DNA of 52,140 nt, taken from an uncultured Alphaproteobacteria bacterium. GTDB taxonomy: Bacteria > Pseudomonadota > Alphaproteobacteria > RF32 > CAG-239. Position 1 is the first letter of the stretch. Every line of letters begins with the position of its first letter. The translations under genes and the position numbers were made by a program. The stretch spans positions 1-52,140 of the forward strand of contig CALXZI010000007.1 in assembly GCA_944393205.1 (NCBI GenBank), in the 5' to 3' direction. Shown here piece after piece: positions 18,543 to 52,140 of the stretch. Under the pieces are notes generated by a model. That model did no database searches. It had not been told where the DNA came from and saw only the letters and a list, made by a program, of their open reading frames with translations.

Positions 18543-19100
18543 ATGAAAAGGTTTTCCAAAATAAACGAAGTCGGCCGATCCATGATTGAGGCCATCGGCT
18601 ATATCAGCGTTATGGTAACCATCAGCGTTTCCGTGGCGGCGGCGGTAAACAGCGGTTATTACAAATATCGTTTAAGCAGGATTAATTCTGAATTGACGGA
18701 TTTAAAGAAGGTTATCAGCCAACGTTATGTCGCAGCCGGTGATTATAAAGAAGTAAGCATGGATGCTCTGATTGAAGAAAAAATCGCGCCGTGGGACACG
18801 CGCGATGGAACGCATGCTTTCAGCGGCGAGGTCAAAATCGGCCCCTACGATGACGGCAATTTCTTTTTTATTGAGTTTGATGACGTCCCGCGCGATGCCT
18901 GTATGGAGCTGGGGTTAAAAGTGTGGATTGTTAATGACGGTTCGGATTTGGATACTTTGAAAATCAACAATAAAACATGGGCTTGGAAATTTTCCAATTT
19001 AACCGATAATCCAAACTATGAACTGCCGTCCAAGGCCAAAGACGTTGTTGAGGGTTGCACCGAAGAATATAAAAATAAGATGATTTGGTATTTTAATTAG
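18543..19100 (+). CDS. Type IV pilin-like protein with short leader
   Basis: A 185-aa prepilin-like protein. The leader is 11 residues and ends in Gly; the mature part would start RSMIEAIGYISVM with the conserved Glu at +5 and a hydrophobic N-terminal helix, as in type IV pilins and pseudopilins. The residue at +1 is Arg instead of Phe, shared with the two long-leader genes in this window. The C-terminal domain has two cysteines (ACMEL and EGCTEE) that could close a disulfide loop, as in PilS-type pilins. GGGAGGG lies 4-5 bases before the ATG. No assembly ATPase or prepilin peptidase is in the window. Confidence 0.78.
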   Translation: MKRFSKINEVGRSMIEAIGYISVMVTISVSVAAAVNSGYYKYRLSRINSELTDLKKVISQRYVAAGDYKEVSMDALIEEKIAPWDTRDGTHAFSGEVKIGPYDDGNFFFIEFDDVPRDACMELGLKVWIVNDGSDLDTLKINNKTWAWKFSNLTDNPNYELPSKAKDVVEGCTEEYKNKMIWYFN

Positions 19101-21365: not shown

Positions 21366-21583
21366 TGGTCAAACTGCACAAATGCCCGATTTGCGGCAAA
21401 CAAACGGACGATGAAAAATATCGTCCGTTTTGCTCCAAACGCTGCGCCGACATTGATTTGGGGCGTTGGTTCAACGGCAGTTATGCCGTGCCGGCAGCCG
21501 AACTTGATGAAAGCGATTATGAAGATTTGGAGCGCGAATTAGCTCAAACTGGCGATGAAAATAAAACGGATTCTATTTGTTAA
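21365..21583 (+). CDS. yacG: DNA gyrase inhibitor YacG
   Basis: A 72-aa zinc protein that can bind GyrB and inhibit gyrase. The zinc ligands are CPICGK and FCSKRC, followed by the family's DIDLGRWFNGSY. The tail is acidic. The start at 21365 overlaps the RNase stop by one base (TAATG). The gene ends 11 bases inside the end of the convergent pilin-like gene, which shows how closely that gene has been placed against the core operon. Confidence 0.92.
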   Translation: MVKLHKCPICGKQTDDEKYRPFCSKRCADIDLGRWFNGSYAVPAAELDESDYEDLERELAQTGDENKTDSIC

Positions 21584-22331
21584 AAGCAATATACAAATTA
21601 CAATAATCTTCATAGCAGATTTGGCACAAATTTTGCATCTGCGCTAAAGTTAAGGTACGGATGCATCTTTGGTTTGAATAACAATAGGTTTCATTGTCGC
21701 CAAAGAACCAATCTTGCGTATGCTGTTCGTCAGAGGCGGATTGTTTACTGTCTACACCAACATGAGAAAGCTCGGCGGCCCAAGGAATGGTAGAGTTAAG
21801 GATATTTAAGCATAGGGTATTGTTTTGATCTTTAACATTACTCATCGTAATAACAATGTTTTTATGTTCGTTATCGGCTGACAATACAACTTGGAGATTA
21901 AAAACATCATAAATATAATTATTATTGCTAATCATTTCTCGCGGAATAAGGTTTAATTTTTCAAGATAAGGCAGCATGTTTCCATTAGTGATATCAATTT
22001 GCAAAACAGCATAATAAAGCTGTGTAAATTGCTCGGTCTGTTTATTGAGTTTATACTTCATCATGGCTTTGGAGTAGCCGGAAATCGCGCCGACGCTTAA
22101 AACCCCGATTATAGCCAGCACGCCGAGCATCTCCACCATGGAACGCCCGCATAATGGCACATCTGTTTGCCTTCTTTTCGCTCGTGTACCGTTTTTGTAC
22201 ACGTCGCTCAAACAAGGCTTCGCATCTGCACCATTCTTCGTTCGTTCGTTTTTTGTGCATAGAGCCGCATCTGCTTGCTTTCTTTCATTGTGTGCCAAAG
22301 AAGAAAAGTTAAAAAAATTGAATAAATTCAT
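21573..22331 (-). CDS. Pilin-like protein with long repetitive leader (gene A)
   Basis: A 252-aa prepilin-like protein. The start is the ATG ending at 22331, with AGGAG 8 bases upstream; a TTG further up is in frame but lacks a site. The leader is 62 residues, far longer than usual for prepilins, and made of imperfect NER/ADxxLC-type units. After Gly62 the mature part begins RSMVEMLGVLAIIGVL with Glu at +5 and then GYSKAMMKYKLNK. The variable middle covers about residues 95-205. The last about 37 residues carry C-x5-C-x12-C-x2-C-x4-C, the pattern also seen in the 51391 gene. The gene is inserted between yacG and rimP on the opposite strand. Confidence 0.78.
   Translation of the reverse strand: MNLFNFFNFSSLAHNERKQADAALCTKNERTKNGADAKPCLSDVYKNGTRAKRRQTDVPLCGRSMVEMLGVLAIIGVLSVGAISGYSKAMMKYKLNKQTEQFTQLYYAVLQIDITNGNMLPYLEKLNLIPREMISNNNYIYDVFNLQVVLSADNEHKNIVITMSNVKDQNNTLCLNILNSTIPWAAELSHVGVDSKQSASDEQHTQDWFFGDNETYCYSNQRCIRTLTLAQMQNLCQICYEDYCNLYIAFNK
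22160..22290 (-). repeat. Imperfect repeats in the pilin leader
   Basis: Three related stretches contain CATCTG, starting at 22160, 22223 and 22268, each followed by a TTCTTT or CTTCG-type run. The offsets of 63 and 45 are multiples of three, so the reading frame is kept. They correspond to leader units ending QTDVPLC, GADAKPC and QADAALC. The related gene at 51391 has only one unit. A small TTCG tetranucleotide run (three copies plus TT, 22237-22250) lies inside. Confidence 0.6.
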
Positions 22332-22375
22332 TAAAAGAACTCCTAAAAACTGCAAAATTTATGTATTTTCTCGTC

Positions 22376-22402
22376 ATTCTAAACCGTTTTTTTTTTTTGC
22401 AA
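22376..22402 (-). promoter_or_regulatory. A-tract promoter module of pilin-like gene A
   Basis: On the minus strand TTGCAA (22397-22402) and TAGAAT (22376-22381) are 15 bases apart, and most of the spacer is a run of A (T on the plus strand, 22387-22398, 12 bases). The block 22370-22386 is identical to 52113-52129 and lies at the same distance (39 bases) from the start codon in both genes. A homopolymer between the boxes could change promoter spacing by slippage. Confidence 0.5.
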
Positions 22403-22560
22403 TTTTAAAGAGTCTCGTGGGGATAAGTTACAACCGGCGGCTTCCATCGTCTTTTTGCGAAAACATTATAAGTTTGATAAATTGTACATATTATAAAAAA
22501 AGTACTTGATTTATTGATTTTTTGTGGTAATGGTATTGACATCTTTCATAAATATTTTTG

Positions 22561-22592
22561 GAAGTGGGGTCAAAAGCCCCGCTTCTTTTTTT
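22561..22592 (+). promoter_or_regulatory. Terminator-like attenuator hairpin in the rimP leader
   Basis: GAAGTGGGG (22561-22569) / CCCCGCTTC (22577-22585), with one G-U pair and a 7-base loop, then seven T. It has the full form of an intrinsic terminator but lies 16 bases before the rimP ATG, with no plus-strand gene upstream. It is therefore likely a leader attenuator for the rimP-nusA-infB operon; a comparable rimP leader is known in enterobacteria. The gap 22403-22560 holds no gene. Confidence 0.65.
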
Positions 22593-22608
22593 AAGAAAAG
22601 TGAAAAAG

Positions 22609-33010: not shown

Positions 33011-35710
33011 TTACTTGTCTTTAGAAGCATTCAATGCCAGATTTTTTAATTCGTAAAGCTTGTCCAAGGCAGCTTTGGGGGTAAGGTTGTCAGGATTAAG
33101 GTCTTTTAGAGCCAGTTCCAGCGGTGAGATCTTTTCTTTTTCAGCTTCTTGTTTTTTAAATACGGCAAACAACGGCAAATCATTTTCAATGGAAGAAATC
33201 GTTTGATTGTTCGGATTATTTTCCAACGAATGCAAAACCTGTTCGGCACGTTTTAAAACCAATTTGGGAAGTCCGGCCAGTTTGGCGACATGAATACCGT
33301 ATGAACGATCAGCCGTACCGTTAATGACCTCATGCATAAAAATAACCTCGTCTTTAAATTCTTTAATTTTCATGCAATGCAACGTTAAGGCGTTGAGTTT
33401 TGAAGCCAAAACCGTCAATTCATGATAATGCGTTGCAAACAGCGCCCTACAATGGTTAACCTCGTGCAAATGTTCAACCACGGCCCATGCGATGGATAAG
33501 CCGTCATAAGTTGCCGTACCGCGCCCGATTTCATCTAAAATAACAAAAGAACGCGGCGTTGATTGATTTAAAATGGCTGCGGTTTCAACCATTTCTACCA
33601 TAAAGGTAGAACGTCCGCGCGACAAATCATCGGAAGCGCCGACGCGGGAAAACACTTTATCCACTAGGCCGATTTTTGCCGATGCGCACGGCACGTATGA
33701 TCCGGTTTGCGCCATAATGGCGATTAAAGCGTTTTGTCGTAAAAAAGTGGACTTACCGGCCATGTTTGGACCGGTCAGCAACCAAATTCGGTTGTTTTCG
33801 CCATTAAGAACGCAATCATTACTGACAAAAGTGCCTTCATGTGTTTTTTCAAGAGAAGCTTCCACCACCGGATGCCGACCTTCTTTAATCTCAAAGATTG
33901 TTGAATCTTCCAAAATCGGGCGGCAGTATTTTCGTTCTGCGGCCAGATCAGCCAAAGCAGCAGCTACATCAAGTTCAGCCATTGCGCCGGCAGCAATGGA
34001 TATATCATCGGAAACGCACAAAATATCATCAATCAAATGTTCGTATATTTCCAATTCCATGGCAATGATTTTTTCTTTGGCGCTGCGAATTTCTTTTTCC
34101 AGATCCGTCAGTTCAACCGTAACAAAACGTGCAGCATTTAAGACCGATTGTCGGTGAATAAATTGTGGGTTTTGCAAAACAACCGCCGAATGTTTTGCCG
34201 GAATTTCAATAAAATATCCCAACACGTTATTGTATCGGATTCGCAAATTGGCGATATTTGTTTCTTCAATATATTTTTGTTCAAGTTTTGCAATTAGTTC
34301 CCGACTGTTATTGTGCAGATGGCGCAACTCATCCAAAGCCGGATAATATCCTTCACGGATAAAACCACCATCGCGAGCCAGTACCGGCAGATTCTCTTCT
34401 TCTACAAGCGCTCGTTCCAAATTATTGACGATGGTACTAAAATCACTTGGTTTTTTTAAGATGTTTTCAATGGCGTCCGGAAGTTTTTCTAAAATTTTAT
34501 TATATTTACCATATGAGTTTAATAAGTTTTTTATTTTCGGCACGAAAGATAGGGTTAATCCGATATCGGCCAAATCTTTCGGACCGCCACGACCAAGGCT
34601 TAAACGAGAAACAGCTCTTTCTAAATCAGAAAAACTTTTAAAATAATCTCGTAATTCGTTCCGAATTTCCGGTACGCTGATAAAAAATTCTATCGTGTCC
34701 AGCCGCCGATTAATTTCATCCAAATCCATAGAAGGGCTTGCTACTCTGGCACGCAACAAACGTGCGCCGGCGCCGGTTACGGTACGGTCCATAGTTCCCA
34801 AAAGCGTGACGCTTTTATCACCGTGTGCGGAATCGGCGATTTCCAGATTAGCCCGAGTTGCATTGTCAATTTCCATAAACTTGGCATCGTTAATCTTAAC
34901 CGGCCTTTTTATTCGGGGAAGCTTGCCTTTTTGCGTGCTTTCAACATAATCAAGAATAACACCGGCCGCTGCAATTTCTGCCTTGGTAAAATTACCGAAA
35001 GCTTCAAGCGTTTGTACATGAAAAAGATTTTCCAGATATTGCTTGGCGCTCAAACTATTAAAACGAGCCTGCGGCAAAACGGTGAGTTTGTCATGGAGTT
35101 GGTTGAAAATATCAAATAAATCAGGTATCTGCAACATATTGTCAGCCACGATGATTTCAACCGGCTGTAATTTGGATAAGGCGTTTTGGATATCTGGTCC
35201 CATGTTTTCCAGAGAAGAAGGAATATACTGTGTGAAAAAATCTCCGGTGGAAAGGTCTAACCAAGATAATCCGAAATTATCATTGTGTCGGGCGCAACAC
35301 AAAAGATAATTGTTGCGTCTGGCATCCAAAAGATTATCTTCGGTTAAAGTCCCAGGGGTTACCAAGCGCACCACTTCACGTCGGACAATTGCACTGCGGC
35401 CGCGTTTTTTGGCTTCATCGGGTGTTTCCATCTGTTCGCATATGGCGACTTTATAACCTTGATGAATGAGCCGCGCCAGATAATTTTCATAAGCATGAAA
35501 CGGTACGCCGCACATCGGAATATTTTTTCCTTCCGATTTTCCGCGTTTGGTTAAAGCAATGTCTAGCGCCTTTGAAGCGATTAAAGCATCGTCAAAAAAA
35601 AGCTCGTAAAAATCACCCATCCGATAAAAAATAAGATAATCTTTATGGGCATTTTTGACTTTCATATATTCAGCCATGGCCGGCGTCAGGTCTTTTGATT
35701 CTTCACTCAT
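33011..35710 (-). CDS. mutS: DNA mismatch repair protein MutS
   Basis: An 899-aa MutS that recognises mismatches and recruits MutL. The mismatch-contact motif is YRMGDFYELFFDDA with F34-Y35-E36. The Walker A motif is TGPNMAGKST near residue 645 and Walker B is FVILDEIGRG near 720. The C-terminal helical tail ends with the tetramer-type extension. AAGAAGA precedes the ATG. Its end is 2 bases from the end of uup and no terminator was seen, so the two 3' ends may read into each other. Confidence 0.96.
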   Translation of the reverse strand: MSEESKDLTPAMAEYMKVKNAHKDYLIFYRMGDFYELFFDDALIASKALDIALTKRGKSEGKNIPMCGVPFHAYENYLARLIHQGYKVAICEQMETPDEAKKRGRSAIVRREVVRLVTPGTLTEDNLLDARRNNYLLCCARHNDNFGLSWLDLSTGDFFTQYIPSSLENMGPDIQNALSKLQPVEIIVADNMLQIPDLFDIFNQLHDKLTVLPQARFNSLSAKQYLENLFHVQTLEAFGNFTKAEIAAAGVILDYVESTQKGKLPRIKRPVKINDAKFMEIDNATRANLEIADSAHGDKSVTLLGTMDRTVTGAGARLLRARVASPSMDLDEINRRLDTIEFFISVPEIRNELRDYFKSFSDLERAVSRLSLGRGGPKDLADIGLTLSFVPKIKNLLNSYGKYNKILEKLPDAIENILKKPSDFSTIVNNLERALVEEENLPVLARDGGFIREGYYPALDELRHLHNNSRELIAKLEQKYIEETNIANLRIRYNNVLGYFIEIPAKHSAVVLQNPQFIHRQSVLNAARFVTVELTDLEKEIRSAKEKIIAMELEIYEHLIDDILCVSDDISIAAGAMAELDVAAALADLAAERKYCRPILEDSTIFEIKEGRHPVVEASLEKTHEGTFVSNDCVLNGENNRIWLLTGPNMAGKSTFLRQNALIAIMAQTGSYVPCASAKIGLVDKVFSRVGASDDLSRGRSTFMVEMVETAAILNQSTPRSFVILDEIGRGTATYDGLSIAWAVVEHLHEVNHCRALFATHYHELTVLASKLNALTLHCMKIKEFKDEVIFMHEVINGTADRSYGIHVAKLAGLPKLVLKRAEQVLHSLENNPNNQTISSIENDLPLFAVFKKQEAEKEKISPLELALKDLNPDNLTPKAALDKLYELKNLALNASKDK

Positions 35711-51390: not shown

Positions 51391-52074
51391 CTACGGCAGC
51401 CACGTTATATAAAAGACACAAGTAGAACCTTCATAACAATTCCGACATGCGGTGTCAATTTCATCTAAAGTGATGTTTTTCAAACAAGTGCGATTGCCGG
51501 TACAATACCGATCGCCATAAATGGTTGATTCAAGGGATTCGGCGTTGCCATCTTCATCTTCCGGCAAAAATTGCGATGTTTGAACATAGTTCAGTTCATG
51601 CCGATTTTCTTTTGTGATATAAAATAGGGTGCGACAAATTTCCAAATCTTGATTATTGTTTGAAAAACTGTAGCCGATTCCGTAAAAATTAGGATATGAA
51701 TATAGCCATATGTTATGGTTGAATATATCTCTCATGTAAATTTTATCATAAAGTGAAATGCCGTCAGGAATAAGACCGAGTTTATCAAAAATTTCAGCAT
51801 AAGATATCCATGAGGAGGCGTTATTGCTTCTAGGTAAAGTACGAGTTGTTTGTAAAGCGTTGTTAATAAGCATATTCATGGATTCTGAAAATTTGTTGAG
51901 CTTATATTTAAGCATGGCCTTGGAATAACCGCTGATAGCGCCAACACTTAAAACCCCGATAATGGCTAAAACCCCCAACATTTCAACCATGGAACGACCG
52001 CATAACGGCACATCTGCTTGCCTTCTTTCATTATGTGTATGAAAGGAAAAGCTAAAAAATTTGAACAAATTCAT
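51391..52074 (-). CDS. Pilin-like protein with long leader (gene B)
   Basis: A 227-aa prepilin-like protein, related to gene A at 21573. The start is the ATG ending at 52074, with AGGAG 8 bases upstream. The leader is 26 residues with one NERRQADVPLCG unit, then RSMVEMLGVLAIIGVL with Glu at +5 and GYSKAMLKYKLNK. The middle (about 60-185) has no clear match to gene A. The last about 39 residues carry C-x5-C-x12-C-x2-C-x5-C with a shared CYE motif. Base use matches the neighbours. Confidence 0.78.
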   Translation of the reverse strand: MNLFKFFSFSFHTHNERRQADVPLCGRSMVEMLGVLAIIGVLSVGAISGYSKAMLKYKLNKFSESMNMLINNALQTTRTLPRSNNASSWISYAEIFDKLGLIPDGISLYDKIYMRDIFNHNIWLYSYPNFYGIGYSFSNNNQDLEICRTLFYITKENRHELNYVQTSQFLPEDEDGNAESLESTIYGDRYCTGNRTCLKNITLDEIDTACRNCYEGSTCVFYITWLP

Positions 52075-52112: not shown

Positions 52113-52140
52113 CTCGTCATTCTAAACCGTTTTTTTTTTT
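52113..52140 (-). promoter_or_regulatory. A-tract promoter module of pilin-like gene B (partial)
   Basis: The block 52113-52129 matches 22370-22386 base for base, with TAGAAT (minus strand, 52119-52124) and the homopolymer run beginning at 52130. At least 11 T are seen before the window ends, so the upstream box is not visible. Confidence 0.5.

Follow-up and report, generated by a model that had tools for sequence, protein, structure and literature searches.

What is the role of a 17-base block that stands, letter for letter the same, upstream of two pilin-like genes, and of the homopolymeric A tract that adjoins it in both places? The stretch of DNA concerned (the window below; 52,140 nucleotides, GenBank contig CALXZI010000007.1) is the whole of contig 7 of the 70 contigs of genome G000, from an uncultured alphaproteobacterium, and the contig ends inside the tract of the second gene, gene B. 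A preliminary description of the window had proposed a promoter shared by genes A and B, whose expression could be switched by slippage in the tract. Comparison within the genome and with its relatives indicates that the element is very probably a promoter, which recurs about 50 times in the genome ahead of a family of type IVb pilin-like genes and usually has a spacer of twelve As. The features of the window on which this rests are as follows.

22370..22386, minus strand: 17-base block of gene A, CGGTTTAGAATGACGAG, with an exact twin at 52113-52129 and 37 further exact sites in the genome
22376..22381, minus strand: putative -10 box of gene A, TAGAAT, with TATAAT, TATGAT or TAAGAT at the same position in other copies and species
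22387..22398, minus strand: A12 homopolymer spacer of gene A (T12 on the plus strand), of the modal length
22399..22402, minus strand: TTGC, the conserved part of the putative -35 side of gene A (GCAA on the plus strand)
22403..22428, minus strand: conserved upstream stretch, ACTTATCCCCACGAGACTCTTTAAAA, in which CACGAG is a species-specific signature
21573..22331, minus strand: gene A, a type IVb pilin-like protein of 252 amino acids with a long prepilin leader; the mature part begins at about the G at 22148
52113..52129, minus strand: 17-base block of gene B, identical to that of gene A, with TAGAAT at 52119-52124
52130..52140, minus strand: A-run of gene B, at least 11, ending at the contig edge
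51391..52074, minus strand: gene B, a pilin-like protein of the same family, 227 amino acids; the mature part begins at about the G at 51999

The letters at 22370-22386 and 52113-52129 were confirmed to be the same on the minus strand, and the distance from the gene-proximal base of the block to the A of the ATG is 39 bases in both genes (ATGs at 22331 and 52074). The TAGAAT box, the A/T run of 12 in gene A and of at least 11 in gene B, and the 15 bases between TTGCAA and TAGAAT of gene A are likewise as first described; the run length of gene B is not measurable because the contig ends within the run. With up to three mismatches allowed, the window holds two matches to the block vs. 0.06 expected by chance, and its only A/T runs of 10 or more are the tracts of genes A and B. 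The pilin-like nature of the two products, also claimed at the outset, is borne out by a fold match and by the prepilin N-terminus.

On the gene strand, the element reads ACTTATCCCCACGAGACTCTTTAAAATTGC-A12-CGGTTTAGAAT and leads, after about 20-40 bases, to a GGAG-type ribosome site and then to the start codon. The promoter type common to four congeneric species, each represented by one metagenome bin (G000 to G003), is TTGC-A12-CGGTTTA(G/T)AAT, with flanking letters that vary by species; in most of the G002 copies seen, the sequence upstream of TTT...TTGC is unlike that of G000, with TTGC-A12-CGGTTTA kept. Most G000 copies have TAGAAT as the -10 hexamer and some have TATAAT; TATGAT is found in the majority of G002 copies, and G107 has TAAGAT. 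Among 182 listed copies (47 of the 47 pattern matches in G000, 48 of the 57 in G001, 39 of the 39 matches to a variant pattern in G002 and 48 of the 50 in G003), TTGA stands in place of TTGC in 11. Because of the -10-like variants, the conserved distance from TTGC and the position before a GGAG-type ribosome site and start codon, promoter function, as proposed in the preliminary description, is very probable. Sigma-54-like and FliA-like readings of TTGC / TAAAGTT were rejected for misfitting geometry, as judged by eye.

The two-gene reading of the block was refuted by a search of the whole genome. In the 1,414,236 bases of G000, the block occurs at 39 exact sites and at 11 sites with one to three mismatches, i.e., at 50 sites, against 6 for the reversed-pattern control. 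The stretches fetched around the copies contain 53 promoters with the box, 49 of which have an uncut run, and a pilin N-terminus lies downstream of all 41 promoters that are followed by sufficient sequence, the other 12 of the 53 being cut by contig ends. A translated search of G000 with the pilin N-terminus located 57 sites with E <= 1 and 55 with E <= 0.001, and the same search counted 53, 53 and 64 pilin genes in G001, G002 and G003, respectively; the G000 pilins at C12, C16:14332, C18:7272, C43:1617 and C8:8732 lack the promoter.

The general promoter pattern matched 47 times in G000, 57 in G001, 2 in G002 and 50 in G003, with no match of the reversed control throughout, and a G002-specific downstream variant of the pattern gave 39 matches in that genome. 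No match was found in the other 79 of the 83 genomes of the family, nor in viral contigs. Among these 79 genomes, 73 have 0 to 10 such pilin genes and six have more. The expanded genomes hold at least 82 (G019), 34 (G029), 21 (G094), 19 (G077), 18 (G006) and 15 (G075) copies, and a pattern search found the A12 promoter pattern absent from these expansions. In genus g7, TTGC-A12 stands upstream of a cysteine-rich gene (L081), though the general pattern is unmatched there, and in G023 of that genus TTTAAAGTTGC-A13 precedes a 316-residue protein (L076), the -10 side being different. For one pilin of G094, which belongs to another genus, no such A-run was seen in the stretch read. Cysteine-rich proteins of the congeners, with signal-like N-termini followed by an ALNCTTQP start (L119 808-2194, L127 2360-2751), have the same promoter type. 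A search of the open-licence PMC literature returned no title or abstract start describing the element or the pilin family, a result that does not establish absence from print.

Long A-runs are nearly confined to the element. The A/T runs of exactly 12 in G000 number 35, and all 35 are copies of it. Runs of 11 or more number 50 in G000, compared with about 3 expected from composition alone in 1.4 Mb; 48 of them were located, all in the element, and two are without coordinates. The 48 include an A21 (C37:9859) in a copy whose TTGC has itself turned to As. The element likewise holds 44 of 44 such runs in G002 and 60 of 63 in G001; G003 has 66 such runs, and the confinement was assessed in G000, G001 and G002. 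Such near-confinement is expected if long runs are tolerated only where variation is useful, or if only this promoter needs them.

The length of the tract is itself conserved. Twelve As put a distance of 13 between TTG and CGG; of the 182 listed copies, 136 have this distance, 18 have 12, 12 have 14 and 9 have 10, with rarer distances of 11 (5 copies), 9 (1 copy) and 15 (1 copy). Distance 13 is modal in every species (34 of 47, 34 of 48, 31 of 39 and 37 of 48 for G000 to G003), and the 11 listed TTGA copies have distance 13 in 7, 12 in 2 and 14 in 2. The tract is pure A in 181 of the 182 listed copies, found with search patterns that required A at its six or seven leading positions only. Of the 49 uncut runs in G000, 33 have 12 As, four each have 9, 11 and 13, and one each has 8, 10, 14 and 21; 16 of the 49 are thus unequal to 12, which is variation between paralogues. 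Intact genes carry 9, 10, 11, 13 or 14 As, and the sole clearly broken pilin having the tract carries the shortest run, A8, which is too few broken genes for a comparison of tract length between intact and broken ones. The earlier suggestion that the 15-base spacer is sub-optimal and that slippage would move it towards 17 is contradicted by the length mode, a 17-base spacer (distance 15) being found in 1 of 182 copies. Since 12 is modal in all four species, twelve As look like the selected setting, and a promoter with a fixed-length spacer of usually twelve As is well supported by this conservation.

Orthologous promoters were compared in six between-species pairs, in which the flank beyond the promoter aligned and the alignment ran through the element. 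The paired A-runs are 12/12, 12/12, 12/12, 11/11, 9/12 and 12/9, so that run length is unlike in 2 of the 6, these being differences between species; the copy with 12 As in the 12/9 pair is less than 70 bases from a contig end, in poor-looking sequence. One copy of the 11/11 pair has an extra C after the run, giving distance 13 vs. 12, and, this C aside, the letters of TTGC and CGGTTTA(G/T)AAT are alike in all six pairs. Among the copies in loci fetched for analysis, to which the signature counts are limited, CCCCA and GACT enclose CGA in G000, AAA in G001 (23 of 36) and CCA in G003 (21 of 31); ATCCCCACGAGACT is present in 42 of the 46 G000 copies counted, and the letters downstream of the -10 box are species-dependent too. 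In 5 of 5 orthologous pairs with G001 or G003, the upstream letters are those typical of the genome and not of the locus, and therefore the copies within a genome seem to be homogenised, with gene conversion as the likely cause.

Between the window slot and L151, the rimP-side flank is 93% identical over 1131 bases and the promoter 89%, while the pilin aligns over 123 bases only; L016/L101, with a flank identity of 98%, show the same break at the pilin, and in L022/L097 and L065/L111 both flanks align and most of the pilin does not. Since flanks align while bodies do not, the pilin bodies appear to be replaced at fixed places, or else to diverge there very fast. Of 140 contig ends, at least 23 are less than 100 bases from a copy of the element, and mis-joins of the short-read bins at the repeat are possible because so many contig ends adjoin copies. 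A mosaic search among the G000 pilin bodies gave no clear mosaic pattern among the best 45 of 47 similar pieces (E <= 1e-4). L111 of G002, whose slot is shared with L065 of G000, has a G000-type upstream stretch, unlike most G002 copies seen, and is possibly an ancestral form or the result of between-species transfer.

Within the 47 complete G000 members, the constant N-terminus has a mean identity of 93% vs. 24% for the divergent remainder (97% vs. 26% in 38 chosen members). The prepilin motif GRSMVEMLGVLAIIG, with G(-1) and E(+5), is present in 43 of the 47, the other 4 having at least one change, in one case D for E. The structure model has a hydrophobic N-terminal helix at 2-50, and the predicted structure matched the type IVb globular fold in the VIA second look; plain Foldseek with the pilin model gave no significant match, and a profile search of solved structures gave only a weak match to bundle-forming pilin (E 0.045). 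Contig 6 of G000 carries a cluster of secretin, PilO, T2SSE, T2SSF and a bundlin-like protein. A prepilin peptidase (PF01478) was not found in G000, which is 99% complete and has about 55 prepilins, and a match was obtained in 12 of 14 control genomes.

The prepilin leaders (22148-22331 in the window, and those of paralogues) are long and modular, with 52-55, 117-120, 160-164, 187, 214-227, 249 or 329 bases from the -10 box to the mature start in paralogues. GTGTAC...GTACAC arms were seen by eye in the longer leaders, where a repeat search gave no inverted repeat. A pilin leader of G094 (L242 207-430) apparently has an in-frame palindromic repeat-like sequence before GRSMIEML, which we take to be reminiscent of the Rickettsia palindromic elements. 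A PilS-like gene (PF08805) lies at 18543-19100 of the window, about 3 kb from gene A, and its upstream sequence is without the A12 promoter.

A mechanism may be proposed in which the element serves as promoter for some 50 scattered type IVb pilin-like genes and, in relatives, for some cysteine-rich secreted proteins. RNA polymerase would contact TTGC(AA) and a TAnnAT -10 box held apart by a run that usually numbers 12 As; this would be the working length, at which the gene would be ON. Slipped-strand replication would alter this distance, so that transcription of that single gene would be lowered or lost, and regained on reversion; each pilin could thereby be switched without the others. Gene conversion acting on the near-identical promoters, leaders and N-termini would keep the copies alike within a species, and the pilin bodies would diverge or be exchanged at fixed chromosomal slots. 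The pure-A tracts, the near-confinement of long runs, the length variants in intact genes and the precedent of Vlp in Mycoplasma hyorhinis all speak for switching, and slippage of the tract in the manner of Vlp is plausible, with a probability that we put at about one half. The explanation as a whole, a pilin promoter repertoire switched by slippage, for which we infer transcription, the ON state at 12, switching within populations and gene conversion from the sequences, is evenly balanced. The fullest version, in which about 50 pilins per genome and the cysteine-rich proteins share one promoter type with a 12-A spacer that is nearly the sole class of long homopolymer in the genome, each gene is an independent slippage switch, promoters are homogenised and bodies swapped, falls a little short of even.

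Several observations weigh against this mechanism. Tract length is strongly conserved, and MutS, encoded in the window (33011-35710), would damp slippage. If most genes stand at 12 and this length is ON, simultaneous expression of most of them would follow, barring some other means of selection. According to the passages cited, nspA of Neisseria meningitidis showed no detectable phase variation (PMC6389960), and the T-tract in the vpma promoter no detectable switching (PMC2268961). Assembled run lengths in metagenome bins may be erroneous, and three G001 runs (C22:15, C22:46, C27:15010) stand outside the element, in odd sequence less than 70 bases from contig ends. The copy at C20:15960 (L223) of G000 has no pilin frame in view, and the 316-residue protein of L076 has no evident signal peptide and hence is not evidently surface-exposed. 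As to the promoter itself, a simple sigma-70 scan of 22200-22600 found none, and TTGCAA and TAGAAT, 15 bases apart, differ from canonical TTGACA- and TATAAT-like hexamers 16-18 apart.

Part of this evidence fits a promoter of fixed geometry without switching, in which A12 would be a stiff, bent structural spacer for polymerase, a dedicated activator or a sigma factor, all pilins would be co-regulated, and copies of deviant length would be mildly defective ones awaiting repair by gene conversion. The modal length is the same in four species despite diverging flanks, the TTGA variants mostly keep distance 13 (7 of 11), the sole clearly broken tract-bearing pilin has the A8 run, and MutS is present. 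However, a non-slipping mixed sequence could hold length 12, yet all but one of the 182 listed tracts consist of As alone. The intact genes with 9, 10, 11, 13 or 14 As also argue against fixed geometry, as does the near-confinement of long A/T runs (48 of 48 located in G000, 44 of 44 in G002, 60 of 63 in G001), though this would be expected too if no other promoter needs them. We regard fixed geometry as a serious but less than even possibility. That the shared 5′ block of about 100 bases serves as a recombination substrate, through which RecA or another system would exchange pilin cassettes with the A-run as a conserved passenger, would agree with the conserved flanks and broken pilin alignments at the window slot/L151 and at L016/L101, and with signatures that track the genome, not the locus. 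It is nevertheless improbable: the block sits as a promoter before start codons and has -10-like substitutions, recombination would not require exactly 12 As, most G002 copies retain A12 with a different upstream stretch, and the alignment breaks could be mis-joins at repeats in short-read bins. A T-run acting on the other strand, e.g., as a terminator for convergent transcripts, is suggested by the T12 of the plus strand and is extremely improbable, since the sequence ahead of it forms no stem (22355-22400 folds with a minimum free energy of 0 kcal/mol) and a plus-strand scan places terminator-like sites at 22436-22451 and 22560-22586, not at T12; the opposite-strand terminator was rejected on these two results.

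Among known pilin systems, that of Neisseria combines a constant N-terminus with a variable remainder, and its silent pilS copies are without promoters; unlike these, promoter and pilin occur together in all 41 judged copies of the present family. Antigenic variation by pilE/pilS, as given in the passage cited, alters the pilin coding sequence by gene conversion (PMC6389960). The R64/IncI shufflon, in the passage cited, diversifies PilV, a type IVb thin pilus subunit (PMC5430464); as there, a pilus subunit is diversified here, in a genome with its own pilus cluster on contig 6, but the shufflon is a multiple DNA inversion system, whereas the present family comprises many complete genes that have promoters of their own. 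Expression of nspA is set by a run of As immediately upstream of the -10 box, in which a single base makes a difference, according to the same source as for pilE (PMC6389960). That case differs from the present element in being a single gene with 5 or 6 As.

In mechanism, the system may resemble Vlp. The Vlp genes have conserved 5′ and variable 3′ parts and lie in one cluster. In M. hyorhinis, indels of the -35/-10 spacer within the promoter A tract switch their transcription on and off, as described in the passages cited (PMC10502178, PMC2268961). Like Vlp, the present family consists of many surface-protein genes whose promoters each contain a homopolymeric A tract: the genes share a constant 5′ part and vary in the 3′ part, the A homopolymer lies between a -35 and a -10 assigned from sequence only, and its length varies from copy to copy and, at the same locus, from species to species. 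It is unlike Vlp in that its products are alphaproteobacterial type IVb pilins, its roughly 50 genes are dispersed and its modal tract is 12; the two are not homologous. Vlp in the strict sense are lipoproteins; as the products here are pilins, with a type IVb pilin fold and a prepilin N-terminus, this is not a Vlp, and the system would be at most Vlp-like in mechanism. The near-identical promoters, differing mainly in the number of As, offer a natural series of length variants through which spacer length could be related to transcription, and the near-restriction of long A-runs in these genomes to this promoter is a testable statement. The families of surface genes switched through promoter-spacer repeats in the passages cited are mycoplasmal (PMC10502178, PMC2268961); if the slippage mechanism is true, promoter slippage would here control a very large contingency system, which this uncultured alphaproteobacterium would have evolved independently of the mycoplasmas.
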